Assembly (NCBI RefSeq): GCF_000001735.4
Contig: NC_003074.8
Coordinates: 8,246,101 to 8,310,100 of the forward strand
Origin: Arabidopsis thaliana
Lineage: Eukaryota > Streptophyta > Magnoliopsida > Brassicales > Brassicaceae
Direction of reading: 5' to 3'
DNA length: 64,000 nucleotides
The notes below the pieces were generated by a model. That model worked only from the letters and a program-made list of their open reading frames with translations, made no database searches and had not been told where the DNA came from. Of this stretch, positions 9,056 to 64,000 are shown piece after piece. A program made the position numbers and the translations under genes. The stretch's first letter is position 1, and every line of letters begins with the position of its first letter.

Positions 9056-11460
9056 ATGGTTAAAGAAATAGCTTCTTGGTTATTGATACTATCAATGGTG
9101 GTGTTTGTTTCTCCGGTTTTAGCTATAAACGGCGGTGGTTATCCACGATGTAACTGCGAAGACGAAGGAAACAGTTTCTGGAGTACAGAGAACATTCTAG
9201 AAACTCAAAGAGTAAGCGATTTCTTAATCGCAGTAGCTTATTTCTCAATCCCTATTGAGTTACTTTACTTCGTGAGTTGTTCCAATGTTCCATTCAAATG
9301 GGTTCTCTTTGAGTTTATCGCCTTCATTGTTCTTTGTGGTATGACTCATCTTCTTCATGGTTGGACTTACTCTGCTCATCCATTTAGATTAATGATGGCG
9401 TTTACTGTTTTCAAGATGTTGACTGCTTTAGTCTCTTGTGCTACTGCGATTACGCTTATTACTTTGATTCCTCTGCTTTTGAAAGTTAAAGTTAGAGAGT
9501 TTATGCTTAAGAAGAAAGCTCATGAGCTTGGTCGTGAAGTTGGTTTGATTTTGATTAAGAAAGAGACTGGCTTTCATGTTCGTATGCTTACTCAAGAGAT
9601 TCGTAAGTCTTTGGATCGTCATACGATTCTTTATACTACTTTGGTTGAGCTTTCGAAGACTTTAGGGTTGCAGAATTGTGCGGTTTGGATGCCGAATGAC
9701 GGTGGAACGGAGATGGATTTGACTCATGAGTTGAGAGGGAGAGGTGGTTATGGTGGTTGTTCTGTTTCTATGGAGGATTTGGATGTTGTTAGGATTAGGG
9801 AGAGTGATGAAGTGAATGTGTTGAGTGTTGACTCGTCCATTGCTCGAGCTAGTGGTGGTGGTGGGGATGTTAGTGAGATTGGTGCCGTGGCTGCTATTAG
9901 AATGCCGATGCTTCGTGTTTCGGATTTTAATGGAGAGCTAAGTTATGCGATACTTGTTTGTGTTTTACCGGGCGGGACGCCTCGGGATTGGACTTATCAG
10001 GAGATTGAGATTGTTAAAGTTGTGGCGGATCAAGTAACCGTTGCGTTAGATCATGCAGCGGTTCTTGAAGAGTCTCAGCTTATGAGGGAGAAGCTGGCGG
10101 AACAGAACAGGGCGTTGCAGATGGCGAAGAGAGACGCGTTGAGAGCGAGCCAAGCGAGGAATGCGTTTCAGAAAACGATGAGCGAAGGGATGAGGCGTCC
10201 TATGCATTCGATACTCGGTCTTTTGTCGATGATTCAGGACGAGAAGTTGAGTGACGAGCAGAAAATGATTGTTGATACGATGGTTAAAACAGGGAATGTT
10301 ATGTCGAATTTGGTGGGGGACTCTATGGATGTGCCTGACGGTAGATTTGGTACGGAGATGAAACCATTTAGTCTGCATCGTACGATCCATGAAGCAGCTT
10401 GTATGGCGAGATGTTTGTGTCTATGCAATGGAATTAGGTTCTTGGTTGACGCGGAGAAGTCTCTACCTGATAATGTAGTAGGTGATGAAAGAAGGGTCTT
10501 TCAAGTGATACTTCATATAGTTGGTAGTTTAGTAAAGCCTAGAAAACGTCAAGAAGGATCTTCATTGATGTTTAAGGTTTTGAAAGAAAGAGGAAGCTTG
10601 GATAGGAGTGATCATAGATGGGCTGCTTGGAGATCACCGGCTTCTTCAGCAGATGGAGATGTGTATATAAGATTTGAAATGAATGTAGAGAATGATGATT
10701 CAAGTTCTCAATCATTTGCTTCTGTTTCCTCCAGAGATCAAGAAGTTGGTGATGTTAGATTCTCCGGCGGCTATGGGTTAGGACAAGATCTAAGCTTTGG
10801 TGTTTGTAAGAAAGTGGTGCAGGTGAGTTTCCTTACATATCTCTTTCTAAAGTTCCTGTCATTAGTCTGAGTTTCTGTTTAGGAGTTCTTTGATAATGTG
10901 TGCAGTTGATTCATGGGAATATCTCGGTGGTCCCTGGCTCGGATGGTTCACCGGAGACCATGTCGTTGCTCCTTCGGTTTCGACGTAGACCCTCCATATC
11001 TGTCCATGGATCCAGCGAGTCGCCAGCTCCTGACCACCACGCTCACCCACATTCGAATTCTCTGTTACGTGGCTTACAAGTTTTATTGGTAGACACCAAC
11101 GATTCGAACCGGGCAGTTACACGTAAACTCTTAGAGAAACTCGGGTGCGATGTAACCGCGGTTTCCTCTGGATTCGATTGCCTTACCGCCATTGCTCCCG
11201 GCTCGTCCTCGCCTTCTACTTCGTTTCAAGTGGTGGTGCTTGATCTTCAAATGGCAGAGATGGACGGTTATGAAGTGGCCATGAGGATCAGGAGTCGATC
11301 TTGGCCGTTGATTGTGGCGACGACAGTGAGCTTGGATGAAGAAATGTGGGACAAGTGTGCACAGATTGGAATCAATGGAGTTGTGAGAAAGCCAGTGGTG
11401 TTAAGAGCTATGGAGAGTGAGCTCCGAAGAGTATTGTTGCAAGCTGACCAACTTCTCTAA
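9056..11460 (+). CDS. ETR2: Ethylene receptor ETR2 (At3g23150), subfamily II
   Basis: Two coding exons, 9056-10822 and 10906-11460, give 773 aa, the known ETR2 length. A further intron (8925-9021) lies in the leader. An extra N-terminal hydrophobic segment (about 5-23) precedes three ethylene-binding membrane segments (about 55-75, 83-101, 115-140). C32 and C34 correspond to the dimer cysteines of ETR1. C94 and H98 in CGMTH are the copper ligands. P66 is the site changed in the dominant etr2-1 allele. A GAF domain spans about 185-335 and a histidine-kinase-like region starts near 370. Its phosphoacceptor His is replaced (MSEGMRRPMHS, E377), and canonical N and G boxes are not recognisable. 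The C-terminal receiver (about 646-765) keeps D652, D702 and K751. The protein acts at the ER with CTR1 to repress ethylene signalling until ethylene binds. Confidence 0.97.
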
Positions 11461-20488: not shown

Positions 20489-22104
20489 TTTTTCCTAGTT
20501 TGTGAATACTGAAAAGTAGGCTTTTAAAACTAGTTACAATGGGTGTTGAACAAAGGATTAAATAGTTGAATCCATTTGATAAAGGTGTTGAATCTAAGTG
20601 TATTAAATGAAGTTAGAAAAAAGTCAACTTTGTTGAATAAGTAACGTCAAGTTTTAACTTTATTTTGTACTTTAGTTCAGGTTTTTAAAGAAAAATATAT
20701 AAATCATAAAATTTGTATAATTACTTTATCACTTTCAGATTTTAAACATTGAAAACTAAATCCAAAAATTCAACACACCACTTCTTTTTGATACTTTATT
20801 ATTTATGACTGAATTCAGAAAGTCGATAATTAATAGATTTTTATTGAAAACGTTTAAAACTGAATTGAGAAAGTTAATAATAGAGATTTAGAGAATAATC
20901 TAACGACTAGTTAGAGACTTTTATTTGGGCATAATTCTTGGATGTATTCTCTCTTAATTAATAAATTTAAAAATTTAGGAATAAATTTTTCTTATTCATC
21001 ATCTCTTCTCTTCAATTCAGTATAAGAAAAGAGATTACCTTTTAGAGCTTTTGATAGGCTTCCATAATTGATAAATTTAAAGATAATCATCAGCTTTCCT
21101 TGAGCTTGAGAGATAAAACTCCCTCAGCTTTACTATATCTACTACAAACAAATAAATATTCTTACACAAAAATTGTGAGCATTTTTTTTGTCAGAAGATT
21201 ATGATCATTTATATACAAAATTGTGACATATTTATTTTGATTATAAAAATATTATAATTTTGTAATAATATTGTGACTGAATTGATGGTAACCAATTTTG
21301 GTACTAATTATCTCCAATTCGTTACAAAATATATAGTCACATTTATATGTACAGATTTGAGACCAAATATGGTAACTAAAGTTTACAATTTTTGTGACTA
21401 AATTTACGTCACGTCTAGTAACAAGAGTTTGAAACTACTCTGTCATAATTAGTCTTACATTTTTTCTTTTTTTGCCATTGGTCATAGATTGTGGCATAAT
21501 TATTACCACTTTTGTAACAAGAATAAAGAAATTGTGAACCAAATATTAAACCGAGCTGCCGGTTCGTCTGAAGCTTCTCATTGGAATAAACATTCTCAAG
21601 GGTGGATTAAATGAACTTGCAGAAATCCATTCGAATCAACAAATTTTCTCAAGATTCACATTATTATTTTCGTTTTTGGTTCCTTTTTGTAATCTCTAAT
21701 GCTCTCCACTCTTACTTTGTCTCTGTTAATTAATAAAGAGAGTGTTGATGGCTAAAAAAAGAAAAAACAGACTCTATAAATTAGTAACATTTCACTATAA
21801 ATTAACAAAAAAAATTGGTCTCAACATTATTAATTTGTAGAGATTTTAATGAATAATGTATTTCATTTTTGGCTACATTAATCTTGTGTTCACACATTTC
21901 ACAACGTTACACTATATACATAAACATCCACAATAACTAAATTGGACTTTAGCTTTTACATTTCGGACCATATAAAAACAGTAACAGAAACATGCTTATT
22001 AATTTAATAATCTTTTGATTTATTAAATTCTTTACGAAAATCGAGTTTGTTCCAACCACAAAATAGTAGAAACGCACAAAACGCGTTTTCTGGGCCGTTA
22101 GATC
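20489..22104. other. Intergenic DNA with TTGTGAC-motif-rich repeat debris
   Basis: No gene supported. Between about 21165 and 21560 the motif TTGTGA(C) and its reverse complement recur many times (for example 21173, 21221, 21271, 21402, 21532), alternating with GGTAAC/GTTAC. This suggests a degraded non-autonomous DNA element, family unknown. Confidence 0.35.
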
Positions 22105-22164
22105 TACATAGAATCAAAAAACAAACAAACTGTACTTTTGAACCGTTGGATCTCTAAACCAATA

Positions 22165-22488
22165 CTAAACCGGAACAAACGGTGGAACAAACGTCGATGA
22201 CTCGTAATAAAACGGCGCCGCGGGATGTTGCCATTTCTTGAAAACCGGCGTTTTCTCAACCGCCACCGCCGTCGACTGATTTTTCTCAACCGGTGGTTGG
22301 TCTACCGGTGATGATTCGGGAGAAAGAGCTAACGGCGAGAGGAGAGGTATAGCCGTATTCCAGTTATTCGCCGCCGGAGTCGCCGGAACGATTTTTAACG
22401 CCGGGGGTCGTTTTAGTAGACGACTGGGCTGCCGCCGTAGATCACCGGAATCTGAGCTGCAGCCCTGTCTCTTCATCGTCGTCGACAT
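22165..22488 (-). CDS. Small plant-specific Pro-rich protein (At3g23170)
   Basis: A single-exon ORF encodes 107 aa, starting MSTTMKRQGCSSDSGDLRRQ and ending FVPPFVPV. It has markedly higher GC and codon regularity than its surroundings, and a 5' leader of about 150 bases with no upstream frame of note. The composition is basic at the N-terminus, then Pro/Ala/Ser-rich, then aromatic (W, F, YY). There is no signal peptide, membrane segment or known catalytic motif. From memory it belongs to a small crucifer family with AtBET12 (At4g14450), whose members respond to biotic stress. A TTGACC W-box (minus strand, about 22718) lies roughly 230 bases upstream of the start, consistent with WRKY control. 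Molecular function unknown. Confidence 0.75.
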   Translation of the reverse strand: MSTTMKRQGCSSDSGDLRRQPSRLLKRPPALKIVPATPAANNWNTAIPLLSPLALSPESSPVDQPPVEKNQSTAVAVEKTPVFKKWQHPAAPFYYESSTFVPPFVPV

Positions 22489-24540
22489 AAACGCGAAAGA
22501 AATCGAGTTCTTGAAGAAGACTAAATAAGCAAAAAGATTTGGAATCGGAAAAAGCTAAAAATGAGATTTGTGGTGTTCCGAGAAAAAAGGTTAAAGTTTA
22601 GATTTTTAGAGATGTTTTTAGAATCTGTGAAGCTTAAAGATTCGTGTTCGTGTGTGTTGTGTATTTATATTAAGTCACAAAGACGTGTGTGTTGAGCATG
22701 TAAAGAGATTTTTTGTGGTCAAAAGTCTTAAGTCTGAAGATACATTGAAAGATAGGAATTAGCTGTTTTTTTAATTTTCTGTGGCTTTGCTGGATTTCCC
22801 TATCTTTCGGTTTCTTTATTTTAATTTTTATTTTGTTTTCCAAAGAGAGGAATATTCTCTGTTTCTTTCACTTGTTTTTCTGTATTTTTAATTTACTTCG
22901 ATTTAATAAGACTTATCTAGATTTTATATCATCATGAACTTATTAGTGATACTTTCATTTACGATAGGTATTCAAATCAATACTGGTAAAGGAGTTTTTT
23001 GGGTATGTTTTAACTGATAAAAAAAGAAGAAACATAAATTTTAAATATATTTTGAGTATGTTTTTGTTAATTTTTATCAGTTTCTTATATTAACTCTATT
23101 TTTTTGTAAGTTTTATACCGTGTAATTAGATAATTGTATACATACCATTTAAAGGGCAGAAAGATTTTATTTTATTTATTATTACTTAAAACTTTATATT
23201 AAAAAAAAGAGTCTAAATCATGAACATGCTCCTAAATCATATTAGTGATATTTTATATATTATCATGAACATATATAGTAACATATTTTATTTATGATAA
23301 GAATATCTATTTATCTTACACATGTTATTGATAAAACTGAAATTTCGATAGGAACCGATTTGTAAAAGTCTAGGTTTTAGGGTTTCCACCAACAAAAAAA
23401 AAAAGGCGTTTCGGTATTACTTAAATGACCAAGAAGAGTAAATTATAATTTTGTAGTTTTTATTTTATTTTTAATAATGGTATACACTATACCAATTAAA
23501 AAGCGCACTTAGATTTATTTCAATTTGATTTATTATTACTCAAAGTCTAAAACCAGTTATCAGCAGAAACAAATTCTGGTAGCTACCAATAAACAAAGAA
23601 GAAAAGAAGCGATGATTACGATGAAATAATAATGAGAAAGCAACGGAAGAACCGACGTTGAGAGATGGGACCATTGTAAGTAGGATCCAATGGACTTGGT
23701 GTTAACTGATACTTCATGCCACCGCCTGTTTTTTTTAATAATCTTTTGACCCTTCTCATTTGTTGTCACTATTGATTATTTGATTTTTTGAATATCTAGA
23801 GAATTCTCATGCCAAACATTACATAATCTAAGTGATTTGTGTTTATGCTATATAGATCATTATTATTTGAATCCAAATTCACATAATACTGTAGTATAAA
23901 TTAACAAAAATAAAGTAGTATAAAACAGTATTTCATAAAATATATTACATGATCTCTTTATTTCACTAAATTGTTTTCTTTTACTGTTCTATCATTCTGT
24001 TAATCTAATATTTTCTCGATTAGACCAATCAAAAAATTATTGAATAATGACAACATTTATCTCTGAAATTTTAAAACAGGTGTTGACCAAGTTTTTTAAA
24101 CACTTGACAATCAAGAAGTTAAATGTCTATTCTTTGACGCAAACGTGTTAAAGTCGGTAGACTTGTAAAACTCTTGTAATAGATTGTTATACGAATTTTG
24201 GCATCAATGACAACTTCAGCAATAGTTAGGAAGTAATTCCGGAAAACAATTTAAAATAAAAACACAAAAATTTGTAAACTAGAATAACTAAATATGCAAT
24301 TAAAAGGGATATATATACGTGTTCAATTTTGGTTTGACGACATTTATGTGTTCGTTTATCAAACCCTTTATGTCAACTTCTTCTTTGATTTTAGTGGGTT
24401 ACCGATTATCTTGTTTACGGAACATGTTTAGTCAAATCATTAATCTGATTACGATTTATAGCCAATCAAATATACCAAGATCCAATTATCCACACGTTCT
24501 ACGCATGAAAGCGTTTTAGCGTTTTGGTGCTTTGAAGTTC
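22489..24540. other. Leader/promoter of the small gene and AT-rich intergenic DNA
   Basis: The first 200 bases are the leader and promoter of At3g23170. Beyond that there are only AT-rich sequences and short chance frames; no gene or clear repeat is seen. Confidence 0.45.
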
Positions 24541-37154: not shown

Positions 37155-38815
37155 TTAAGCAACAGGAGGAAGATTTTTGAGATCACGAGACGTATCACGG
37201 TCAGCAGGAGGTAAGGGTGACCACATTGGCATGTTTGGAGGATAGTAGCCGTAAGGGTAAGCCACCGCCATCTTATGGGAATGGAAAGCTGCTGGATGCT
37301 GGGAGGGCATGAAACCTGGTGATGGAACCACCATAGATTTTAACTGTTGCTCCATCTTCTCCTTCTCCGCCTTCAACACCAGCTTTTCCTCTCGTAGCTC
37401 GTTTTTATCCGCCTATTACAGACAGTTAGATGAGAAATCAGATAAGTACCAAACATAATGATTATGAGCTAGAAACATTTTCAAGAAGAAGATACACAGA
37501 CTACTACTTAAATTAGGTTCTCATAACTTTATGACAAAGTTTTATGACCTTGAGCTTTATGACAAAGTGAGAAACCAACCTTTAGACTCTTGATCTCTTC
37601 TAGAAGCTTTTGGTTGGTTTCTTGAAGCTCATGAGCTTCACCTCTAAGCTGATTCACAACCCGGATTGCATCGTCGAGTATAGCTGATTTATCCGTCTTT
37701 GGAGTCCTGCCAGGCTCTAAAACAGAGCTCAAGTCCATGAACCTGAAAAAATACCCAATATTTTTTCATATAAGACGACTGCAGAACAACACAGTGCAAG
37801 CAATAACTAAAACATATGTAGAGAAAGCTCTGAACATACTTGTCATTTAGCTTTTCCCTTCTTAGTTTCTCGCGACAGGCTTTGGTTCCTGGCTTGCTAC
37901 ATGATCCAGTTCGTCTCCTGTTCATACATAATCACATCAAACAACGAAATGGATGCTATAGTTGTCTTGTAGATAACCAAACAACAAGATAACCATGGCC
38001 AATCCAAGCTACATAACTAAAAGACTCAATTCAAGACCCAAAACTAGTGGAGACCAAGAGAAATCATTAGCTGCAAATATCTTAATTCAATCTAAACACA
38101 CCACAGAAAACACAACATCTTTCAAATCATCAGAACAAAGAAAAGTAAAGAGCAAGGTATTCAAATTCTTAAAAGACTACCTCTTCCCCGAACATTCTTC
38201 CTCAAACTCTTCCTTAACAGCTCCAACAGATGACGAAGAATTGATTTCCACTACACCACTAAACACCTGTCCTTGTTGCTGCTGCAAATGAGGCACTGCA
38301 GAATCGTCGTTTTGTCCTCTAAAGCCACAGACTTGATGTGTCTCTTGCTGCAAAACTCCACTAAACGATGCAGCCAAATCCAATTGTGCTGATCCAATGC
38401 TACTACTATAAACAACTCCATTGTTTCCTCCTCTAAAGCTACTACAAACTTGCTCAAGATTTCCATTAAAAGAATCAAATTGTTCTTGTTGTGGCTGCAT
38501 CAGATTCACACCACAAGACCCAAAATCCTGAAATATGTTATCTTCATTTGTTTGCATATATCCATAAGGATCTTCTACTCCATTGCTACAGAATCAAGGT
38601 AACAACAATCTCCATCAACAACAATAACGACCGCTAGAAAAACTTTTCATATTCAAAATCGAAACTTTTGCTAAAATTGGATTGAAATTTGGAATTGTTA
38701 AGAAACCCAAATAACAAAAGGCACAATACAACACAATTCAACAATAAAAATCAAACCTTTGATCAAAACAAAGAGCAGCGAGAAGATCATCATCGTCTTC
38801 GATTGATGGATACAT
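37155..38815 (-). CDS. bHLH34: bHLH transcription factor bHLH34 (At3g23210), subgroup IVc
   Basis: Five exons on the minus strand (38815-38757, 38585-38181, 37917-37840, 37742-37580, 37412-37155) give 320 aa. The N-terminus is acidic (MYPSIEDDDDLLAALCFD), then Gln/Ser-rich. A basic patch GKRRRTGS (about 152-160) can act as a nuclear signal. The bHLH domain lies at about 167-217, with basic residues ACREKLRREKLND and helix 2 in ILDDAIRVVNQL. A leucine-zipper-like heptad follows (about 215-265). The C-terminal part is Pro/aromatic-rich (YPYGYYPPNMPMW). Subgroup IVc members (bHLH34, 104, 105/ILR3, 115) dimerise and activate iron-deficiency genes; bHLH34 is also reported as a glucose-responsive activator. 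Splice phases all agree. Confidence 0.93.
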
Positions 38816-41019
38816 CAGAAGAAGAACAGAGAATGCAGAACGAGAGAATCTGCAAAAATCTGTCTCAAACACACAAATACTGTATTCCCTAGAAAATTTG
38901 AGGAGATATATATCTTTTGTTATTGGAAAATATATATTAAAGATTTGAGAGAATTTTGGAATTTTAAACCAAATTTTATTCTCGTGAAAAAAAACATATC
39001 GAATTTTAACAAGAAAATCGGAATCGGTTTTATAGTATTAATAAATTAATTAATTTTTTAAAAATGTATAATAATATGTGGGGCTTTTAGAGAGCCACGC
39101 ATTTGGCAAATGAAAATGGTTGGGGTCAAGAGTGAAGAGAATCGTTCAGTGTTGGACCACTTTTCTTAAAAAAGGCGGGGCATTACGTTTCGTTTTTTGT
39201 ATTGGTTCGATTTGTTTATGTATAGTTAATGGTAGCATTTGCACTATCTTAATAAGTGTGCATGTTGATGTAGCATCACATTACACACATGTCTAACTTT
39301 AGATTATGGTGAACACTAGCTACTCGTCACATATGTCGTATATGAAGTCTTTGGGATAGGATTGAATTGATGCAGATTATCATGTTCTAAAATTAAATCA
39401 TAATCATGTTGATCTCATAGTATTGTATGTAATATATAACTTATTTCTTATGATGTTCACAAAATTGTCTCAAGTAAAACAAAATAATAGTTTAAACATC
39501 TCTTAACATGAGTTGCATGGTGTGACTAACAAAAATAAACATTTGCCTAATGTCCTAAAATATCATACATATTTTGGGGTCCCAAATAATCGTTAATTGA
39601 TATATTGGTAAATAATTTCTGTTAACTATATCTTATTTTTTCGTTTTCTTTTAACTATATCTTAATTGAGTATAAACTTCATTTTCGTATATTTAAAAAT
39701 TTATTTACTCATGTATAAACTGAAAATATTTATGAAATCAGTATTTCAAATTTTTCATTTATTATTTGTAATACGTCGTTTCCAAAACTTGACACTACCA
39801 AGAAATAAAAGAAGTATATAGTACGTAGTTTTGTCAATATTCTAGAGCGAGCAGTATCCACAAACTCAATAGAAGGCCAAACCAATTACTTGTTTGGTCA
39901 AAAAGTCGAAGACTTGTGAAAGAGTTGGCACTTGACATGGAAAAAAAATCTAACTTTGATAAAAGCAGGAACAAATAAAAGACACAAAGTGGGAAAATGG
40001 CCAATCGAAGAAAAGGAAAGACAAGTGAAGCAGTGTCATGATCATTACAGTGAAAGAATCAAAGAATCATTCATGTTTTCTTTTAAGTTTTTGACACTTG
40101 GAAGTTGGAACAACAAAACGTTCGTTGGTGTTTTCAAACGCCGCCATGCATCTTCGGATTTCAAGCATCTATCTCCCGGAGATGATCTTTTCATTATATT
40201 TTATCTTTGTAATTTAAAACCTATGTTATGAAATTATTTGGTACATTTTTTTGTTTAAGTGAAATTATTTGGTACATGCTGATGTTACTTCCACAACTTT
40301 ATCCAATTTCTGAATTAGATTTCTTTCGTTTTGTTTTATACTCATGAAAATACACATTTCAATACTCGAAATTATTTTAAGCATAACCCACATCCAACAT
40401 GTGATGGGACCTATAGTGATATGAGATAATACACTCATTGTTAATTAATTTCAAGTTAAAAGCTATGAAACTTAATGTGGTATTAGAGACCATATTTGAT
40501 CTACGTAATATTTGCATAGTGTGATCAATTCGAAATTGGACGGAAAACCATTATTTCGAGGAGAACGTGTTAGGAATTTCACATTGAAAAGATGATACGA
40601 CCTAGGGTAATATATAAAGTTAACAAAAGTGAACATATTCTATTGGATGTTAAAGTTGTTCTCCTACATATTTTGAGATGAAGATGTTTTTATAAACTAA
40701 TATCCTTTGTCCAATATATGGCCTTCAAGCATTGGTGGGAAACAGTTTGTTGGGCTTATTGGGTCGCTCAACATACCCAGTAACAATGTCGAATTAAGAG
40801 GCCTAAGCCCATGATTTGACATTTGTAGTTATTTTTTTGAACCTAGCTAATATACAGCTGTTCTAAAATGTTCTTTCTGCAATGTTTTGTAGTGATATAA
40901 TCATGCTAAAGTACATATAATTTGATCAAATAGGTTTACAATACACACAACTCCTAAAATTTGAATTTATTTTAACTATATTTTTTAAAATATATGTTAT
41001 TAAAACTGAAATAACTTGT
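38816..41019. other. Intergenic DNA between bHLH34 and ESE1
   Basis: Includes the bHLH34 leader. A 99-codon plus-strand frame at 39932-40231 shows no family signature and poor codon bias, so it was not called. The rest is AT-rich. Confidence 0.4.
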
Positions 41020-41224
41020 CTATCAAAACTGTATATATATTTTATATTATCTACTATAAGTGTTATCATATTTTACATGTCTTTATATGTATTATGATTC
41101 AATTCACACACATTTCTATGTGTTTCGTGATGGTCAAATTGAAATTTAAAAGACTAGAATCTACTACACGTGCATTCAAATTTCACACGTGAGTCAATTA
41201 ATTGAAGGAAAAACAAAAACAAAA
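41020..41224 (+). repeat. Tandem promoter duplication upstream of ESE1, unit 1
   Basis: An approximately 205-bp unit carries two CACGTG boxes at 41167-41172 and 41186-41191. It is followed at once by a second, slightly diverged copy (41235-41436). Shared blocks include ATTCAATTCACACACATTTC and GACTAGAATCTACTACACGT. Confidence 0.85.
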
Positions 41225-41404
41225 GTAGTATGCTCTATCAAAATGCAGAAATATTTTATGTTATCTACTATAAGTGTATCATATTTTACATGTCTTTATA
41301 AGTATTATGATTCAATTCACACACATTTCTATGTGTTTGGCGATGGTCAAATTGAAATTTAAAAGACTAGAATCTACTACACGTGCATTTAAATTTGACA
41401 CGTG
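41167..41404 (+). promoter_or_regulatory. Four G-boxes (CACGTG) in two duplicated pairs
   Basis: CACGTG occurs at 41167, 41186, 41380 and 41399. Within each pair the boxes are exactly 19 bp apart, and the spacing was kept by the duplication. A fifth copy (CACGTG at 41751) lies 118 bases before the ESE1 start. CACGTG with ACACGTG flanks is bound by bHLH/bZIP factors, including ABF-type ABA factors, so an abscisic acid or salt input is plausible but inferred. Confidence 0.6.
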
Positions 41405-41436
41405 AGTCAATTAATTGAAGGAAAAACAAAAACAAA
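41235..41436 (+). repeat. Tandem promoter duplication upstream of ESE1, unit 2
   Basis: The second copy of the unit at 41020-41224, at roughly 93-95% identity by eye. It preserves both CACGTG boxes. It ends about 430 bases upstream of the ESE1 start. Confidence 0.85.
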
Positions 41437-41868: not shown

Positions 41869-42288
41869 ATGGAACGTATAGAGTCTTATAACACGAATGA
41901 GATGAAATACAGAGGCGTACGAAAGCGTCCATGGGGAAAATATGCGGCGGAGATTCGCGACTCAGCTAGACACGGTGCTCGTGTTTGGCTTGGGACGTTT
42001 AACACAGCGGAAGACGCGGCTCGGGCTTATGATAGAGCAGCTTTCGGCATGAGAGGCCAAAGGGCCATTCTCAATTTTCCTCACGAGTATCAAATGATGA
42101 AGGACGGTCCAAATGGCAGCCACGAGAATGCAGTGGCTTCCTCGTCGTCGGGATATAGAGGAGGAGGTGGTGGTGATGATGGGAGGGAAGTTATTGAGTT
42201 CGAGTATTTGGATGATAGTTTATTGGAGGAGCTTTTAGATTATGGTGAGAGATCTAACCAAGACAATTGTAACGACGCAAACCGCTAG
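41869..42288 (+). CDS. ESE1: ERF group IX transcription factor ESE1/ERF95 (At3g23220)
   Basis: A single exon encodes 139 aa. The AP2/ERF domain occupies about 14-71 ([37 protein letters not shown]), with the Ala and Asp in YAAEIRD that mark the ERF rather than the DREB subfamily. An acidic C-terminal motif, [14 protein letters not shown], is the activation motif of small group IX ERFs. The nuclear protein binds GCC boxes. ESE1 is known to be ethylene- and salt-induced and to act downstream of EIN3. The promoter has a duplicated G-box module (see 41020-41436). It shares size and layout with the divergently placed ERF98 1.3 kb away, which indicates local duplication. Confidence 0.93.
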
Positions 42289-50261: not shown

Positions 50262-53200
50262 AAGATTAGGATTTGTATTAGGGACCTTAAGTTTGAAGTG
50301 GTTGATTAATTTTAACCCTAATATGTTTTTTGTTTGCTTAAATATTTGATTCTATTGAGAAACATCGAAAACAGTTTGTATGTATTTTTGTGATACTTGA
50401 CTTTATCAATTTCAAGTTAGTGTAAAAGTCTTTGTCTCTTACTATTCAACTAGTAAGAAAACTCTCATTTTTCTTATTTATCGTAATGAGGATTGTCTTT
50501 AAGCATGTGCTATTAGAGTATTCAAACATGTTTTAAGTTAACATAATAATTTTTTTGCACAAAGCCTACAAATAGTGTAAGATGGTCATAATCAATTGCT
50601 CATAACAATATACAAAGACAGTTCTTTTTATTGTTCTGTAATATATGAGTCCATGAGTATTGAGGAGCGACTCTATATAGTAGTATAATTTATTTTTGTT
50701 AATCATTAATTAGGAGCCACCTAAATGGCTAACTATAATAATGGAGTATAAGTTAAAGTGTTTTAATTTTGTTTCAAATAGACCACAACTGAAAAAGATG
50801 GTCAGGTAGTGTAATGAAAATCTTGACTTCTTTCGGATTAGGTGGCAACTTCTAGAATTTTTGTGCTATTTTACATATATTTTTAATTCATGATTTAAAG
50901 TAGCTATGGATTTTCTTGTGACTTTCTAAGGGAATTATCTAAGAATAATTGAATAAAAAAGATTTAAATATGCAGAAACTTGAACTTTTTTTTTGCAATG
51001 AGATGCATCTGTAACTAGAACTTTTGTCCGATAAAACGTTTTAGGTAAAAAAAGTAGTCACATAATCACATTATTGTTTTGGTAGTTGAGGTCACCAGAA
51101 CGATCTGTCATAACTTTTGGGTTTGCTTGCGTATGGGTCATGACCAAGTGCATTGTAATCAAAATTTAGCCGGTAAATAGTATTATGGTAATGACATATT
51201 AAATCAACTCATAGATTTCTTTATAATATTTTAACCTGTAAAATCTAATCTTAATATTCAATTATTCACTAAAGACAAACCTGTAAACTTTTGAATGAAC
51301 TAATGTTAATTTTGATTTTTTTTTTATCTGATGATTTGGAATAATAATTAACAATCCTATCAATATTCCCCATCTCTAGTAATAGGAAATAGTATAACAA
51401 TTACTGATTATAGAAAAATTCTATAAAATGCCACACATTCAAATTTTGTTGTAAGAAATATCACTATTAGTTTAATGTTCCAAAAATACCACCAAAAGTT
51501 TTGATTTTTCAAAAATACCACAAACACCATACTTGATTTTCAAATGTTCAAAATTTTTAATTTTAAATTTAGGTTAACTATTTTAGATAACTTAAGTGAT
51601 ATTTTTGGAATATAATGGTATTTTTGGAAAACCAAAATTTAAGTGTTGTATTTTTGAGAAAAGTTTAAAATACTGTTAATAAAATAATTTGCAGTTATAA
51701 AATTCTATATTAAATTTCAGCAACATAGTAGTATATCTTTATATATAATTTCATTTTAAGATAACATAACATCTACTAGTAGTAAATTGCCAAATTGATA
51801 CATGAAACATCATATAAGCATTAAAAAAGGTATGCAATTTTATTTCAGCACGTGTTTATTTGAACGTCGGCGAATTGCAGAACAAAACAGAAAAGATTAT
51901 TTGTTTTTACGATGGTGGACCAAGTGGTCAATATTTTGCTGGGGGACATATCAAAAAGAGCATAGATTTAAAATAAAATAAATTGTATGCAATATAAAAA
52001 TAGATGAAAAAGGGCATAAGCTATGTAAATACTCTGAACTATTACTGTTCATCGACTATAATGCTGATGTGGTTTGATAGCTTTATCCATTATCCACAAT
52101 GGTTAAATGAATTTGGTCAAAAAATCATAAGAACTTAGTATTTTACAAAACCTCATTTGCATGAGAAACAAACAATAACATTAAATCATATACACTTTAC
52201 ACTTAAGTACTCCACAGAACATGGACTTGGTCCGATTCTTTCCCTTCAACAATTAACAGTGACGAATTTTTGTATATCAATATTTTTCTACTAAAATTTC
52301 TAGATCCATAACTATAATCATTATATAGGTCCTACAATAATTAAAATATGTTATCCAGTATTTTCGGCGTTGACCATTGCGCTGTTAAATTTTCAATATT
52401 TTATGTTCCAAAAAAAAAAGTGTTCACAAACTTTGAAGACAAGTTGAATTGGAAAAAGGGAGATAAATATTGAATAACAAAACTAAATTTTCAACATATT
52501 TTAAATCAATTATCTTAGATGGACGTTTAAAATATCAACTTTGTACAAGTTTTATAGCTAAATGAACAACAAGCTTCATTATGTTAAGTTTTAAAACCAA
52601 AAATATATATAAAAAATGTATCGTAAGTTTGTTTAGACGTGCATGCTTCAAGCATGTTACAACATTCTGTCTTGAATTTATTATCTTGGTGCAATTGAGG
52701 AATTCACCTCCCATAGTATGTACTTCTTACAGTCGAGTGTCAGATCTTTGTTTTTGCCATTCTTATATTTGGTTTCTAAAACTATTAAAACAAGCTTTAA
52801 TTGAATCCACTTCACTCTTTCATTAATCTTACTTTATCAATTTCTTGTCAGCCCATGCTAAAGTCCATTATCTATTTTCTAACTGATAGGCCCATGTGAT
52901 TAGTACAACATACAATTGTTGATATTTCAACTGGATTCACTAAGCCTTGTTTGCTTTTAACATTTGTTTTTGAGTTTGCTTATTATAACAGGATTTCTTC
53001 CAAAATGAAATTATAATTTTAACAATGATTTTTTGTTATTTCTTTTTTAAACTTTAACAGAAAACATAAAGAAAAGGAGAGCCATTGGTGCTGAAGGTTT
53101 TTCTAAAGAAAATTTTCATTCACCAAGTAATGATCTATTTCTATAAAGAACTTTTGTTTTTGAAGATGTAGATGCAATGAAGTATGTTGGAATTCGCATT

Positions 53201-54280
53201 AGTAAAAGAATCACCATCCACAACGAACTCGAACCTAGCTTGGTATAGTTGGTATATGGTTATTGGAAACCAAATCAAAATTGATTTACTAATTTTTTTT
53301 TTTTTTTTTTTCATTACACCGTTTTCTTGTATTATTACTACACAAAACTGTGACGTTAGCAAAATAAAACTGTTTTAAAACCAAACTTGGACCTTTTCTT
53401 ACGTTACATAAACGTAAATGTAATGGATGCTCCATTTTTCACTTGTTAGACTTCCACATTTAACGACCAATTCTCGACACGAGAAATTATTTATTCAGGA
53501 GGCCAAGAGCTATTATAAAGAGTTTGGAAGATATTTCGACTGATCATACAAAAAAATGTTATAAGATATTTGCTTGTTTTTTTAAAAAATTACTCGCATA
53601 TGAACCAATCATATAGTCACTCTCGATGTGTCAAAAGTAAATGCTACTTTTTTTTGTTTTTTGTTTTTTTTCACAAACAAAATGTTAATATAATCTCCAA
53701 AAAAACGTTTAAAACGAATCTAAAAATCAGCAAAAAAAAATCAATCTCCAAAAGAATGCTAATTTTCTCTGGTTTTCTGTTTGATTTTGATACCAACAAA
53801 CTTACATTTAACATGTTTTCTTTCCTCTATGCTGTGTAGGGCATGTATATTCGTTAAATTAAAGTGCGGCAAATTAAATGACGTTGAAAATATGGTACGA
53901 AAAATACTATAAGTAAATAAGATCAAATGTTTGGGGATATATCAGAACGTATCTCTCAAAATTTGAGGATACATATCCGGTACCTAGTCCAATACATAAT
54001 ATTGGTTTTAATTATTTTGTATGTTTATCATCATAATATTTTCCTTAGCAATAGACACAAAATAATAATTCATAAGAAAAACTGAAATTTATTGCAAAAT
54101 TGCAAAACGACAGTTTACTTTAATTAGACATAAAATGAACCTTTTTTTGTTGTTTTAATTTGTATGGCGTATGCTTTATATGCTTGAATGCGTCTCGCAT
54201 TTTTACGTACAAAACTGCTACGCGTAGCAAAATTTATAATTTAGCTCTATAACCTCTGACTTAATCTTATTCTTCGATGG
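50262..54280. other. Gene-poor region downstream of ERF1
   Basis: ERF1 3' UTR, then AT-rich DNA. A foldback repeat is listed at 51470-51665. A long oligo-T tract lies at about 53293-53311. No gene supported. Confidence 0.45.
51470..51665. repeat. Foldback repeat with CAAAAATACCA units
   Basis: The left arm carries CCAAAAATACCACC and TCAAAAATACCACAA. The right arm carries their reverse complement (GGTATTTTTGGAAAACC, GTATTTTTGAGAAAAG). The arms are about 75 bp and separated by about 50 bp of AT-rich DNA. This is typical of small inverted-repeat DNA elements in crucifers; the family was not identified. Confidence 0.55.
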
Positions 54281-54784
54281 CTAGAAAAAATCCCTCGCCG
54301 TTGGTCGTATCTCTGGTACTACTGGTGCTTCTTGATGAGTTTCTTCCGCCGCCGCCTCCTCCAACTTAACCTCATTCTTCGATGGCTGGTAGAAATCCCT
54401 CGCCATTGGTCGTATCTCTGGTATTACTTGTGCTCCTTGATGAGTTTCTCCCTCCGCCGCCTCCTCTAACTTGACCTCATTCTTCGATGGTTGGTAGAAA
54501 TCCCTTGTCGTTGGTCGTATCTCTGATATTACTGGTGCTCCTTGATGAGTTTTTCCTGCCACCGCCTCCTCCAACTTGACCTCATTTTTCGATGGCTGGT
54601 TGAGATCCCTCGCCGTTGGTCGTATCTCTAATATTACTGGTGCTCATTGATGAGTTTCTCCCACCACATTTATGCCTGCTCCGTTCGGGTTTTGGGGTAA
54701 AACCGGGTATCCTTGGAGAGAGATTTCAGTCATGTTGAAGATGTTCAGGATGATAATAACCACATAGAACGAAATCCACAACAT
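54281..54784 (-). pseudogene. Secreted tandem-repeat peptide precursor, cut by one in-frame TGA
   Basis: From an ATG at 54784 the minus strand reads a 46-aa peptide ending at TGA (54646-54644). It has a hydrophobic signal-peptide-like start (MLWISFYVVIIILNIF), then EISLQGYPVLPQNPNGAG. The same frame continues beyond that stop as about 3.5 direct repeats of 35 codons (105 bp). The consensus pieces are THQGAPVI, PEIRPTARDFYQPSKNEVKL and EEAAEGE, and the run ends at a TAG at 54283-54281. In unit 1 the stop replaces a Gly codon (GGA in unit 2); the final TAG replaces a Gln codon (CAG). The layout resembles multi-copy signalling-peptide precursors. The RPT and RDF pieces recall CEP-type precursors, but the CEP ending is absent. 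I do not recognise the family. Confidence 0.5.
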
Positions 54785-55379
54785 ACCTTGCTAAACTTTC
54801 CCAAACCTTTAAGGATTATCTTATGGTTATTTATCCATAACATCACAATAACGGCCACGAGGCAGTCACCGGTTCGAACAGATCATCTATCCCAAATAGC
54901 TTGGCATAAATACACCAAAACAAAATCTTTTTAAAATCACTAAAAAAACTTAACATCCCCACTCCAAATAATAAGACTCACAAGCTTCGAATGAAGAACA
55001 GCTTCCGCAACATTGAGGAACAAAGTATGTGTTGAGTTGGTACGTAACACACAAACTTAAGTTCTCTAGCCGTTACGATTAACGAGTGTCTAACTGTCTA
55101 TATCCCTGTATATTCGATAAATAAAGAAATCGTTCATGATCTTCCTCTTCTTCAGACGTTCACTTAGATAAACGTCATTTTTTAGACGTTCTTTTGGAGA
55201 CTATATTAGCATTTGTAATTTTAACTCCTATATATTTATTTTGTTATAAAATTTGGACTCATAAATGATTTTTTCTTTTCTTACAAAAAATAACTCAAAA
55301 TTTTCTAACGACCGCAAGAAAATAGCATTTTAGAATGACTAGATATTGGATTTTTAAACCTTTATAATTACTTAGAAGA

Positions 55380-55385
<6 letters not shown>
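54785..55385. other. Intergenic DNA upstream of the repeat-peptide ORF
   Basis: Presumed promoter of the minus-strand repeat ORF. A 73-codon plus-strand frame at 54713-54934 overlaps it antisense and shows no family features. Confidence 0.35.

Positions 55386-55423
<38 letters not shown>
55386..55423. repeat. (AT)n microsatellite
   Basis: A pure alternating AT tract of 38 bp (19 dinucleotides). Likely length-variable between accessions. Confidence 0.95.
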
Positions 55424-55425
<2 letters not shown>

Positions 55426-58400
55426 CAATAAAAGTCAAATACGAATTCTAAATTTTCTTCACACCACTATCATCTTATAATAGGGGCTATACAATATCTA
55501 GGTACTAGACTATAGGCTAAGGAATCATATATCAATTTCTCATAAATATTTGCATTCAATTATGGTTCCTAAAGTAGAAGATACCACCTGTATAAACCAA
55601 TGACCGGAAGCCAAGTAGAATATACCAAATATATAAACCAATGACCGTAACGCGTACGTAAAGTTGAAGTTTGTTCAAAGTTAGGCAAACGTATTGTTTG
55701 TCACATACAATAGTAAACAATCACAATCACTCATCGGATTAATTTGTCATTTAATGTGGAATATAATACTGCGAATTGTTACATATAAACAATCTGATAG
55801 ATTGCATGTTGTTGAAAACACCCTACTATGATACAAAGAAAAAGATTATCCTCAGTTTACGTTGCATGAACCATTATTTTGAATAATTAACTGAATCGAG
55901 ATTCTCTAGTTATGAATCGGGTATTAACAACTTGAGTTCATAGAGAAGATCAAGTTCATGAAATCTTTTCACATTTTATAAGTTATAGACTAGTATATGT
56001 CAAGAGATATTTTTTTCACATCTTCCGATCGAAGAGTCTCGATGCATAACTAATCTCTATTACGCAGGATAACACGACTTAGTAGAATCGAATTCCGGTG
56101 AAAATGGTGAACTCAAATGGATTTAACCACTTGACCAAATGCATATTTCCTTATGTAACCAAATGATTTTATTTTTCTTACGCAAAATAGCATTTCCTTC
56201 ATTGTATAAAAGAGAACCATTTTGACATTTCACTCATGTTAATATATTATTTAACTGTATACATATTCTACATATGAGTAATTAAATTAATTTTTTTATA
56301 AACTATGATTAAGAGATAGATTAAGTTGGGCTATTTTGTAAAAATATTTTAAAATTCTAAAACAATGTTGAAAAAAATCAGATACTTTTTCGCAAAGCAG
56401 AAAAAAGTACTAAATTTTTATGTAGATCGACCAGTTATTTATCATCAAGAGATGGTATAGCCGCCACCGTACATGTTGCCAATTCGATGACATAAATCAA
56501 GTTGAAATGCCTATTACATCCTAAGGTTAATAATGTTGTTATTTTAATCAAAGTAAAGTACATCTCCAGTTATTCAAAGCTGAGTGGAAAATTCCTACCA
56601 GATTCTGACAAATCATTAGCTGTTTGAACTTGAATTGGTTTGTAAGGTATCCTCTTGAGGCTACTAATTCAATCATCATGTCTATATATTTTAACATAAT
56701 CTATATTAAACTTTGGAATCGTAAGGTAAAATATAAAATATGTTTTAGTGGAATATAGTATTATAAAATCTATCAATCATGAAGTAAAATTTGCTACGTT
56801 ATCATCGGTTTTTCAAATAAAGGATGATAAAATTCAAACTTGAATGAGCCAGCCAATAAGAAGTAAAATAGAAATTTTACAGATGATTATAATTTCCATC
56901 GACAAATAGAAACACGACATATAATTTAACTATGAACAAAGCGTTCTTGAAAAAAATCACTGAAATCATCAACTTTCGAAAATGGTTAGTATACGGCTAC
57001 ACTAGTTTAAGCGGGATCAAAGTCAACATTTAATATTCAGTGTTTACGTTAATACGATCCTTAACATGATCCTCCATCAAAGGATAGACTCAAATCTTAG
57101 CTATGCAAGCCAACCACTTTAGTCAGCCAACCACTTCATCACCTGGTCACATTTATGCGGCCCAAAGAATGCATTTATCGTCTAAGACTATGACGACCCG
57201 TCTCACGAAACAACTAATCTATTTTTTAGCCGAGTAAATACACTAGAAAATAATTCTACTCACCAAATATGAGGGGGATAATATTAGATAAGAGAAATCA
57301 AGAGAAATAAATCTACACAACACTTCATGATCGATAAAGAGGAAAAATCCTCTAAATCTTTCAATATTGTAAAAATCTTCCGAATGACAACACACTAGTA
57401 GCAAAAAGCGCATAAACTTGATTTGACCCTATATGTGAAATATTCGTAAAACTAACTGATATAGAAAAAAATTAGAATTTTGGTGTAACGTATAGACTGC
57501 CCTTATTAGTGAACATTCACGTCTTTTTTCGGACTCGTAGGTTTAATTTCTATCAAACGATCGACTGCTATATCCGAAAGTTTTAAAAATTTGAAATCAG
57601 CATATGGTGTTTTCTCTTGTTTTGTCTTCATCTACACGATTTCGACAATCACTTTTCGAAATGTTATCCATTCTAAATTTTTCCTAACTCAATTACCATT
57701 AACTTTTGAGTTTTTTTCAGATTAGTTAACCAAAAAAATAAGTAAATTTTAGTGACATAAATGGTCAAATCATTTTCTTAAACCTCTGCACAGCATCAAC
57801 ACATTTCCTAAAACAAGAATTTTAGATCTCGCATTACATAAAATTAAGTTTAGCAAACCATTTGTAAGTATGTTTTGATTTTGAGCATTCGAATGAGAAC
57901 CGAATCAAACATACAAGACAAAATAAAATAAATAAAAACATTTTTGTCTGCAATTTTCATCTATAAAATCCAACAATGACAGCTACACTAGTTTACGAAA
58001 CAATTTGAAATCTGCTATGCGTTTTTTTTTTGTGTTGTTGCATTTTGTCTTCGACTGTTTTAAAAGTGCTATAATATTTTTTAGGATTACTCAAGACAAA
58101 TAATCATTATCTTATTCCTTAATATATTAGAGTTTACTTGAGACTGCGAATGTATAAATGCTGATCCACTGGATTAACCACTACTTAGCAGTTCTTTTTT
58201 TTAATTTTCTAAATAGTAAACGAACTACACATGGTTATTTTAGAGAAAAAGAATGAAAAAACATTGGTAAGCCATTATTACTTCTTTTTTACTTTCTTAA
58301 TACTATTATTTTAGAGAAAACGAGAAAATTAGATATAGACAAGTTGGTTTGCTATCGACAAGTGGTAAAAGCTTAATACTTAAATGGGAAAAAGCATTTA

Positions 58401-61400
58401 CAAAGTTGGAAAGTATAACTATGTTACTGTCATTGGCAGTCACTGGGTACTTAAGTAAAATAATCATAGCTTAGGAAAAGTCGAATTCGGAGGTTTATAA
58501 TACTGAACCGACACTTCGCTATTTAGTTGTGTTTAAGTCGACCAAAGTACCAATCCGAAAGATTTTGTATTCGTTTTTTTTTTCTTTTGAATAGAGATTA
58601 AAAATAATCGATGTTAATTCACAACAACTGTATACAACTATTGAGTCTTAATCATCCAGCGAATTTTTCACACGTTTTGACCATTTTAATTAGACTACCA
58701 CAAATGAAAATTACTCACTTATTAAACGATGTTATTCAAACTTTCGGATTAAAATACTCATAATAAATTCCAATACGATCCGGATCATAATAATAGGTTT
58801 CTCATACTATAGATAGACTCAAATTATCATAAAATTGTCTCCGCATTTAAAAAAGAAAAAGCTCGTTGAAAATGATTATCTAGACTATAAACGCTTGTTG
58901 AAACAAAATTGTCAATTCATTATCAGAAACCCAAAGTATTGCAAACTGAAATATAAGTCAAAGTATTCACAGAAGTTGTGATGATAAGAACGCGGATGAA
59001 TTAGTATCTCAATTCAATTGTAATTATGAAAAGAATCTTGGACATTTTGTACACATACATATGTTCAACTAAATATATCTTGTATGAATTTTGTAGGTCT
59101 AGTCTTGATAGAGTGGATGAGGTATTAATTGTCTAATTAATTCCAAGTTTTCAAAACTTGAGTTCACATAATTTGGAGCTAAATGTTGAGTGTTGACTAC
59201 GTTGATCGATCGTCTGCTAAATTACCAAACTTTGAATGTCGATATTATAATAAGTAGCAATTTTACTATCAAAAGATAGGTATATAGTATGCTAATTTCT
59301 TATTTTAGCCAACATGAGAAATCAACTTTAATTAAATACGTTTACATAGCCACTGTAAATGTAAACCATACATCGATGGGTATTACCCAAAACTTGTATC
59401 ATAATAATGTATAATTGTGATGTCATCGTGACCATTATGAAAATTATAGCATAATGGCTTGTAATAGTGTAGTAGTCATGTAAATTATCTTTGAATCAAT
59501 TTCTTATTATGTGTATGTGGAATCTAAGCGACGACAAATTAAAACATATCAATTGTACTTGTAAAATCACCAAATGAATCTGAATTTTTGAAAAAAAATA
59601 TATTTTATAAACTATGACTTATTTTTAAAGAGTGCCATATAATATAGACGATCTGAATTTTGGAGAAAAAAAAAAAAAAACTCATAAAGGATCCAACAAA
59701 AGAAAAGAATTACCTTATTCTGTTGAGTGTGAACACAAATTTTTATATTTATATTCTAAATTTAACAAGTGTCTACTACGCAACCAAATCTATTATTGAC
59801 CGTGAGAGAAAGAAGACCCGTCTCCAAAAGGAAATCCAATGTTCTTTCAAAAAATACTATTGAAAGAATTAGCTCCAAAAAAGTGAAAATAGTGGAATAA
59901 TGGTCCTCTAATTTGTATAGTAATAGTAATACCTCTGTAACAAAAAAACAAATTATATAGTAATATCTTTGACATATTTCGGGGACAGGACAAAAGTACC
60001 AACCCCATCTTGTTCTCTCACTCCGTACGTACTATTGCGACTTTAGTTTTTTTTTTTGCTTACGATTGTGTTTTCTAACGCGTTTTAAAACCCAAGAATT
60101 TTTTGTTTCCTGTTGAATTTCAATTTGCATGCACATATAATATCATTTTACTTCTTAGAAATCAGTACCAGACCTTCATGATTTATGTTGAAATTCTTTG
60201 ATGAAGTTGACATTCACAATCTTATCATTTATTTCAAAAGTCAGCTTTTACTTTTACAAAATCAAATTCTACGATTATATGCTATTTTAGGAATATGATC
60301 TGGTTTATAAGTACACTGTAGACTCAGAATGTATACTTCAAGTTTAAGAGAAAACATGTATATACCAGCTGTTTTTCCAATTTCTGAGTTGAAAAAATTC
60401 TTATCAAATATTAAGAATCATAAATCTTTAATTAAAACTACATGCAGTGATCTATATTTGATTAATTATTTTAGAAATTAAACAGTCAGTCAAGGATGAC
60501 ATGCTTATACATTATCATTTATTCAAAAAAAAAAAAAAAAAATGTATACTTTATACTATTTATAATTTATTAATTAGGCGACAGCTTTGCAACTACTTCT
60601 GTTCTTCAGCTATACGAATGCTTGTAAATTATGTAGTGTATCATATTAATTATAGGTCTAATATATATTCCATGAAGTCAAAATTTTACCGGCGATTCTT
60701 GTATTGGAGTCAATTGCATTTATATTTGAGTTTGAAAAGGCTAAAGTTTAAGAAAAAAATGGTAAATAAAAATCCCCTACGTATGTGAATATATATGACT
60801 TTTTCTTGTCATTCATTAACTAGCATTATGAACCAAGAAATAGTCTAAATGTACCAAGGTGTTTAAACTGCACGCGTTCACATAACAAAAACGGTATTCA
60901 TTTTGTGTTAGTTTTCTTTACCTATTGGTTCACAATGGTATTTGGTATATATGATATCGAATACTCGTGTATAAATTTTGTTGATCGACTATTAACATTG
61001 TAAATGTAAACCAAGTGACCTTCACTAGTTTCACCAAGTATAATTTAATATTTTAGAATACATCAAAAAGTTTATCACTTGTTTTCAACACGTACCAACC
61101 TTAGTTTTATGCAAGGTGCTAGGATTAACACCTTTTAGAACAATATTTGATGAAGAGAGATATCATGTTTGATAAACAATATGGAAAACTAAAAACTTTT
61201 TCATAATTAAAGATGGTTAAGCTAGGTGATGCTAATATATCTGCATATATAAAATTGCATAATTTAGAAAAATTATGGATTTATAGAATCGCAAAATCAA
61301 AAATCGAAATAAAAAGTTGAATACTAAACTCAGGCAAAAAAGATGAATTTGAATAAACTAAACAAAATTAAATAATTGATGTTTTGGTTTCATACCATAT

Positions 61401-62447
61401 CAAATCTGAGAAAGAAACAAAAAGATAGAGATGAAAGTGATTTTCACATTAAGCTGTGGATTATGTTTACAACGAAATACATATAAATATTATATTTATT
61501 AGGCTAGCAAAACCTTAACTAAACCCAAACATGATGCAATTGATAATTTGTCTTTCTGACCCAATAAACTGGGTACATAAATTTTATATGTCAGTATGCT
61601 TCATGTTACAGTACTTTAATTATTTAACACTAGTAACGCAAAAAAGATTTTTTAATAAATGATCATTTAATCATTATCATTCTTCATTAAACATTATTTA
61701 TTGTTTTCTAATAAAATATAATGATGGTTTAATTGTTAGTGTAAATTTATATGGTAAAACTAAAACCTGTAGGTAAGCCTCTTTTCAGTCTTTTGTTGAC
61801 CAGAAACTTTGAACAATAGAGTTCTATTTTAACAAATACTAACAAAATACAGAAGAAGGGTAAAGTTTTAGGTTGAAACTTAAAAGGGTGCGATACGTGT
61901 GAACGCGTTGGTCAACAAATACTATCACGAGCTGTTCTCTTTCCCGCGGACAGATATTGATTTTTTCGTGTTCTATTTTTGGATTTTGTGGCTGGTGTAA
62001 TAATAATATTAAAGCATATATACTAGTATAAAACTGGTAATTTTTCGTAGAGGATTGTTTTCTCAAAGCCCAAACAGTAGTTGCAAATTTGTAATAACCA
62101 GATTTTGAAGTAAAATAAAATGGTGAGGAAATTTTAGAATAATTTATTTATCAAAAAAAAACTTTAGAATATGTTACATATTTGGTAGTTATAGTATTGT
62201 ATCAAATACACATATTAATCGAATTGTTTGATAAAATGGAAGTAAATTATTTTTGACTGAACTATGTAGCACATATTTATTTTATATGAATCTCAAAATC
62301 ATTTATATAATTTATGAAAAAGTTAGTTTTTTTTCTATTCGATACGTTAACAATTAATTATGACCAATAAATTGTTTTAAGGCATTCAGCAGTCTAAAAA
62401 TAAAGACTGAAAATGGCGTCATAATAAACGTAAATGCAGTAAATATT
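55424..62447. other. Long gene-poor region
   Basis: About 7 kb of AT-rich DNA with no frame showing plant-like codon use, no tRNA, and no recognisable transposon protein. Scattered low-complexity A or T tracts occur (for example 59667-59680 and 60525-60541). Confidence 0.45.
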
Positions 62448-62710
62448 ATTCCCTCTATTTTTGAATATTTGTAGTTTAAAATTTTTGCACACAAATTAAG
62501 AAAACATACAAATCTCATTTAATTTATCTCTTTCTTATAAAAATATTATTAATTACAATTAATCCAACCAATAAAAAAATATGATATAAAATATAATTGG
62601 TTAAAAACTATTAAACACATTTAATTTTGCATAGAAAAGTGAAAACAACACTTATAGTAAAAAAAATAAAAAATCTTTAAATTACACTTAATTAGAAATA
62701 GAAAGAATAC
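62448..62710. mobile_element. MITE-like element with approximately 20-bp terminal inverted repeats
   Basis: The left end TATTCCCTCTATTTTTGAAT pairs with the reverse complement of the right end, TATTCTTTCTATTTCTAATT. The interior is very AT-rich and non-coding, and the length is about 260 bp. The CCCTCTATTT-type terminus is widespread among crucifer MITEs. A TA target duplication is possible but not certain. Confidence 0.55.
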
Positions 62711-63238
62711 AAAACGTACGGATGTTGTTAACCTAAACACGATTACTACCGAGACTAAAGATGTCTAAGTTTAATACTAAGAAAAGTAAAACAATTTTTC
62801 GAGCAGATATATGAATAGTGATTTTTTGGGTCAACACATAATCCACCCAACGTTGATTTTTGTTTGTCGTTTACAATCTCTAAAACGTTTATTTTCTAAG
62901 AAATATACGTGTGGGCTCATTTTAATGCCCTTCGTGCGTCTACCCGACGACTTTGTTTACTCGAAACTATATCACACACTACACCACATATTTCAACATC
63001 ACACTGTATACACACATTTATATATACATGCAGACCGATTATTATAATAATATTTTCTCCGGTCCCTAAAACATATATATCATTCATTCCCACATGAGAT
63101 ATAATATTATGTAAAACATACTTTTGACTATGTTGCCAATAATCAAAAAGACATCTCTCTCTCTCTCTCTCACATCCTATTTTCCAAGAAGCTCACCAAT
63201 GCTTTTGAATTCTCCCACATGTCTTTTGACAATTTTAG
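62711..63238. other. MYB15 promoter region
   Basis: Includes a CT microsatellite at about 63152-63170 and a TTGAC W-box core at about 63226, shortly before the TATA box. No gene; the plus-strand frames at 62811-63097 have no family features. Confidence 0.45.
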
Positions 63239-63246
63239 TATAAATA
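63239..63246 (+). promoter_or_regulatory. TATA box of MYB15
   Basis: TATAAATA lies 153 bases before the MYB15 start codon, with a plausible leader of about 120 bases rich in CA and AT. Confidence 0.65.
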
Positions 63247-63391
63247 CTCAAACCCCTTAGTCAGTCATTCTCATGTTCATCAACAGCATTTGATCTCAAG
63301 CTCATAGGAATTTGATCTCCACATTATATCTTGATCATCACCACAAGAAAAACATTTCAACTTCTTTTATCAGCAATCACAAATCAAAGAG

Positions 63392-64000
63392 ATGGGAAGA
63401 GCTCCATGCTGTGAGAAGATGGGGTTGAAGAGAGGACCATGGACACCTGAAGAAGATCAAATCTTGGTCTCTTTTATCCTCAACCATGGACATAGTAACT
63501 GGCGAGCCCTCCCTAAGCAAGCTGGTATGTAAAAATTATAATATCAAATTTCTTAATTTTGATCAAATTTCTTACATTAATTATTGGTAATTATTATTTA
63601 CAGGTCTTTTGAGATGTGGAAAAAGCTGTAGACTTAGGTGGATGAACTATTTAAAGCCTGATATTAAACGTGGCAATTTCACCAAAGAAGAGGAAGATGC
63701 TATCATCAGCTTACACCAAATACTTGGCAATAGGTATTTTACTTCACATATAAGTATATAACCGACACACAAGTTTTATTTTGTTTTCTTACTATATATA
63801 AATCACCAAAAGAAAGTAACTTTATACACACGTCTAGGTCGCACTACTATTCTTTTAACTACACAATGATCGGCTCTTTAATTACTTTTGTATTGATGTT
63901 CTTCGTTTTCCTTTTGGTATCATCTTTAGATGGTCAGCGATTGCAGCAAAACTGCCTGGAAGAACCGATAACGAGATCAAGAACGTATGGCACACTCACT
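63392..64000 (+). CDS. MYB15: R2R3-MYB transcription factor MYB15 (At3g23250), 5' part
   Basis: Three exons are visible: 63392-63524, 63604-63733, and 63930 running off the window end. They encode [20 protein letters not shown], the complete R2 repeat (W17, W37, then W57 after the intron, from memory of spacing) and most of R3 ([38 protein letters not shown]). The introns are at the two classical R2R3-MYB positions, with phases that agree. The GRAPCCEK start and domain fit subgroup 2 (MYB13/14/15). MYB15 is known to act in defence-induced lignification and in restraining the CBF cold pathway through ICE1. The C-terminal regulatory region lies beyond the window. Confidence 0.93.

Follow-up and report, generated by a model that had tools for sequence, protein, structure and literature searches.

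In the closest described systems, secreted peptide precursors carry short conserved motifs, sometimes several to a chain. CEP motifs comprise 15 residues ending in SPG(I/V)GH, and the CEP9 precursor has five motifs (PMC4526919). SCOOP precursors have an SxS motif in a conserved C-terminus; they are secreted precursors restricted to a single genus or family, some of them with two motif copies (PMC8448819). IDA/IDL and PIP/PIPL peptides share a core of the form S(G,A,V)PS and/or GxGH.

Within a 64,000-nucleotide stretch of Arabidopsis thaliana chromosome 3 (NC_003074.8, positions 8,246,101 to 8,310,100; hereafter the window), we studied a locus whose layout resembles CEP9-type multi-motif precursors: a signal-like N-terminus leads into several copies of a short unit, all in frame, with the tripeptide RPT in three of the four units and RPM in the remaining one. 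It differs from those precursors in having no CEP motif, in carrying internal stops and in showing no visible constraint, and it departs from the SCOOP precursors, which it resembles as a possible lineage-restricted secreted product, in that its 168-codon frame contains no SxS. We read the locus as a decayed single-locus multi-repeat open reading frame (ORF); this is the best of four readings, at a confidence that we would put slightly short of an even chance, with a chance minisatellite close behind.

Membership of the CEP family, raised by the shared RPT, was ruled out by profile and ungapped comparison. A profile built from 13 CEP motifs of this genome scored CEP loci at 15.9 to 34.1 bits over complete or almost complete motifs and the candidate at −1.9 bits, the candidate's best match spanning 4 residues (E 3.2). 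The best ungapped score was 14.2 for the candidate versus 75.0 for the CEPs themselves, and 10.5% of 200 shuffles reached 14.2. CEP-type places were recovered by the genome search, five of them within one 276-codon frame. SCOOP membership was rejected on the absence of SxS, and membership of IDA/IDL and PIP/PIPL on the absence of both S(G,A,V)PS and GxGH, from the 168-codon frame; a DY motif is also absent from it.

Read on the minus strand from ATG 54784, the locus gives 46 codons, a TGA (54646-54644), 120 open codons and a TAG (54283-54281). The TGA codon of unit 1 is GGA in units 2 and 3 and GAA in unit 4, while the terminal TAG codon of unit 4 corresponds to CAG, CAA and CAG in units 1–3, respectively. 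Past this TAG, unit 4 still agrees with the consensus at 23 of 30 bases, and thereafter at 2 of 12; because its homology continues, we regard the TAG as a further lesion within the array, which does not naturally end there. The earlier note had described a signal-peptide-like start in frame with 35-codon repeats, one phase kept through every unit, and a TGA where the next unit has GGA, all of which agree with our alignment: a hydrophobic N-terminus precedes 3.8 copies of 105 bp that are read in frame from the ATG without an indel between units. Its CAG-to-TAG change is likewise present, but as a lesion within the array and not its end, so that the single internal interruption it had counted becomes two. 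The present DNA could yield a 46-residue peptide at most, ending just inside unit 1.

Table 1. Features at the candidate locus, in window positions.
Feature	Position	Strand	Basis
168-codon frame with internal TGA and terminal TAG	54281..54784	-	codon reading
46-codon ORF closed by TGA	54644..54784	-	ORF listing; residues about 2-17 hydrophobic
In-frame TGA, unit 1	54644..54646	-	codon reading, unit alignment
In-frame TAG, unit 4, within homologous stretch	54281..54283	-	codon reading, unit alignment
Tandem array, 3.8 copies of 105 bp	54259..54659	-	Tandem Repeats Finder
Units 1-4	54658-54554, 54553-54449, 54448-54344, 54343 downwards	-	unit alignment register
QGYPVLPQ, perhaps a diverged echo of QGAPVIPE in the unit	54692..54715	-	score 31, protein shuffles
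75-nt intron-like stretch, AAG/GTATGT ... CTCTCTCCAAG/G	54712..54786	-	splice consensus
Left arm, 35-nt inverted repeat	53680..53714	+	89% complementary
Right arm, 35-nt inverted repeat	55180..55214	-	89% complementary

Tandem Repeats Finder reported the array with a period of 105, 88% matches and a score of 611, and an independent repeat search recovered three 203-nt windows at spacings of 105 and 105 with 87–88% identity. In the register starting at 54658, no indels separate the units; the ratio of indels to substitutions would predict three or four indels per 27 substitutions. Their absence hints at frame keeping, and is no test of it.

An open repeated frame was in itself common in random sequence. 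Among 5,000 random 105-bp units of the same composition, 89% had one or more of the six frames open and, as a length of 105 bases preserves phase, the long phase at this locus is largely a by-product of duplication. Of 20,000 simulated arrays, 12.5% placed an ATG 20 or more codons upstream in one open frame with the units; in 1.4%, this joined start passed a crude signal-peptide rule (hydrophobicity and residues −3/−1) as well. The 46-codon ORF satisfies this rule, as do 30 of the window's 278 ATG ORFs with a length of at least 30 aa, about one in nine. These figures, together with the neutral unit changes described below, lend support to a non-coding minisatellite, in which a GC-rich 105-bp stretch would have been duplicated by slippage or unequal exchange and the upstream signal-like start would be a chance hydrophobic ORF; all copies would then be in phase because the unit length, 105, is a multiple of three and one frame of the seed was open by chance. 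In copy number, unit length, match percentage and neutral changes the locus is indeed like an ordinary minisatellite with an open unit. It is unlike one in that its GC island extends upstream of the array, in that an in-frame signal-like start, found in 1.4% of the simulations, precedes the units, and in that an in-frame QGYPVLPQ echo also lies upstream. We consider the minisatellite a plausible account, ranked slightly behind the decayed ORF.

Comparison of the units with one another bears on both of these readings. Relative to the unit consensus (ties going to the base that appeared first; unit 4 truncated at base 81, its remainder being dropped), there were 27 changes, 8 synonymous, 17 non-synonymous and 2 to stop. 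The neutral expectation, from 20,000 shuffles in which the base type and unit of every change were kept and its position randomised, had means of 7.8 synonymous, 17.6 non-synonymous and 1.6 stops (P = 0.56 for at least 8 synonymous changes and 0.50 for at least 2 stops). With the two stops set aside, 8 or fewer synonymous among the remaining 25 changes had a probability of 0.03 at a dN/dS of 0.4 and 0.005 at 0.3, while values of 0.5 (P = 0.09) and 0.7 (P = 0.31) were compatible. The consensus shuffles thus detected no protein-level constraint over the divergence of the units, with low power above a dN/dS of 0.5. A synonymous cluster that might mark a conserved core was rejected (longest run 3, equalled in 47% of 5,000 shuffles). 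C-to-T or G-to-A changes made up 18 of the 27 (4 at CG, 4 at CHG and 10 at CHH sites), too few for a conclusion about a methylation-decay signature.

As the repeats have changed like unconstrained DNA, a relic is likelier than a working peptide gene and, with no synonymous excess among the units, any coding phase would therefore mostly predate their divergence. The substitution rate is about 7e-9 per site and year, from which the 10–12% divergence of the units would mean, as a rough inference, several million years. Two features to be expected of a secreted multi-repeat precursor in general are missing: the frame through the units is interrupted in unit 1 and unit 4, and the split of changes between units fits the neutral expectation. 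If the locus is a relic or a chance case, it illustrates how tandem duplication produces long phased frames that mimic conservation, and unit-versus-unit comparison offers a quick filter for such calls.

Other properties of the locus point to a coding past. The array has a GC content of 47.6% and the 125 bp preceding it one of 44%, compared with 28% and 30.5% for the two 1-kb flanks. The window holds eight segments with a GC of at least 0.44 over 500 bp, and the other seven all overlap a long ORF, the segment at 21951-22741 overlapping a 129-codon open frame. Similarly, the window contains nine ATG frames that span 150 codons or more up to the second stop, and the eight besides the candidate lie in long ORFs (for one of these, at 38177-38557, no Pfam match was found). 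A coding past is plausible because of this GC island, the long ATG frame outside any evident gene and the joined signal-like start seen in 1.4% of simulations, signs that were collected post hoc. Codon usage was ambivalent: the open repeat frame had the best score of the six (−0.08 per codon; next best, −0.10), yet this score is negative and lies under those of all eight training ORFs (−0.02 to 0.13). Upstream of the array, the match of QGYPVLPQ to QGAPVIPE, a post hoc observation, scored 31, a value that 0.18% of 5,000 protein shuffles attained; similarity between the two was not found at the DNA level.

We favour a decayed ORF because the neutral unit changes and two in-frame lesions stand beside the GC island, the long ATG frame, the joined signal-like start, the QGYPVLPQ echo and the lack of indels. 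It is weakened by the negative codon score, the missing synonymous excess and the post hoc gathering of signs, and by the fact that no open-frame homologue was seen in the searches described below. Under this reading, an ancestral ORF would have had a signal-peptide-like start running into a tandemly amplified 35-codon unit, and its product may have been translated and secreted as a multi-unit precursor, with a layout like that of CEP9-type multi-motif precursors. Constraint would have been lost early in the divergence of the units and not just recently in this accession, leaving a remnant that presumably now evolves without detectable protein constraint.

The earlier note had taken the conserved frame as a sign of very recent loss. 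Neither the neutral split of changes nor the two lesions bears this out, and a kept phase is what duplication would be expected to give. The corresponding alternative is that the locus is a genuine secreted multi-repeat peptide gene of recent origin, still intact in alleles elsewhere, or that this accession makes a functional secreted peptide of 46 residues. The signal-like start in frame and the absence of indels are consistent with it, as are the dN/dS values of 0.5 to 0.7 that the data allow. In pairwise comparisons (unit 4 cut at base 75, stop codons skipped), dN/dS was below 1 in five of six unit pairs, but each value derives from 1 to 5 synonymous changes, and the ratio exceeded 1 for units 3 and 4. 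The neutral split and the two stops argue against such a gene.

Searches for relatives also weigh against it. Across the genome (119.66 Mb, 7 contigs), DNA, array-protein (E up to 10) and 46-residue peptide queries returned this locus alone and no paralogue, in a search that hinges on its first look and that remote relatives may escape. Besides the four units, a degenerate pattern for EIRPTARDF hit 16 places in the genome at 2–3 mismatches, versus 9 control matches; among the matches listed when the unit was compared with these loci by tblastn, no other was better than E 0.017, and nothing convincing appeared in neighbouring similarity among those listed. This genome yielded no open-frame homologue; the bacterial/archaeal and viral contigs scanned gave no confirmed relative, and the solved structures searched gave none either. 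Pfam gave sub-threshold, implausible matches only, so that neither there nor among the structures nor with the CEP profile did the candidate match a family, in line with the earlier note; Rfam gave 0 matches at the gathering threshold. Seven peptide strings of the candidate had no match in the literature search, nor did a search with a locus number, or with the neighbour genes combined with peptide terms, find anything. We therefore judge a real peptide gene unlikely. Similarly little credence goes to its most specific form, a lineage-specific precursor of no known family that would release several copies of a peptide of about 20 residues, stay intact in other accessions or Brassicaceae and have its stop-codon loss segregating here. 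Should intact alleles exist, this would be a young signalling-peptide precursor that is still segregating, for which natural null accessions would be available.

The peptide frame might also be incidental, either because the start region (54786-54712) is an intron of some transcript or because an old transposon, bounded by 35-nt terminal inverted repeats, carried the locus as cargo; we regard both as very improbable. The intron-like stretch has a GC of 37%, a consensus-like GTATGT donor that contains the proposed start codon, and a pyrimidine-rich acceptor. Against this, once it is spliced out the repeat frame meets a TAG two codons ahead of the junction and acquires no start. A spliced frame skipping the TGA was likewise rejected on the 25 of 146 combinations listed, with intron GC of 0.43–0.49 and donors such as GTGGGA, GTGGTG or GTTTTA, which are far from the splice consensus. 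The inverted-repeat arms lie 1,465 nt apart with the candidate between them, and their score of 50 compares with a maximum of 44 among 300 Markov controls, which would suit a transposon. However, inspection by eye revealed no target-site duplication at the arms, a genome-wide search at up to 3 mismatches found each arm to match only the two arms themselves, and the flanking DNA showed no repeat family at the arms. We take the inverted repeat to be real and a transposon, for which no family was found, to be improbable.

The candidate, read as a decayed ORF, sits within an AT-rich part of the window (GC 29% across 50.3–63 kb), where its 97-aa repeat frame is the longest ORF listed for 50300-64000. 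A dispersed repeat of about 140 bp lies at 56010-56158 and recurs at 10 further places in the genome (contigs C1, C2, C4 and C5) with 70–80% identity. Elsewhere in the window, an ORF at 9056-10870 has ETR1_N/GAF/HisKA domains and ORFs at 41869, 43547 and 49491 have AP2 domains, which fits the ETR2–ERF1 neighbourhood. About 430 bp ahead of an AP2-domain ORF ends a 213-bp tandem duplication (41019-41436; 2.0 copies, 94% matches, zero indels).
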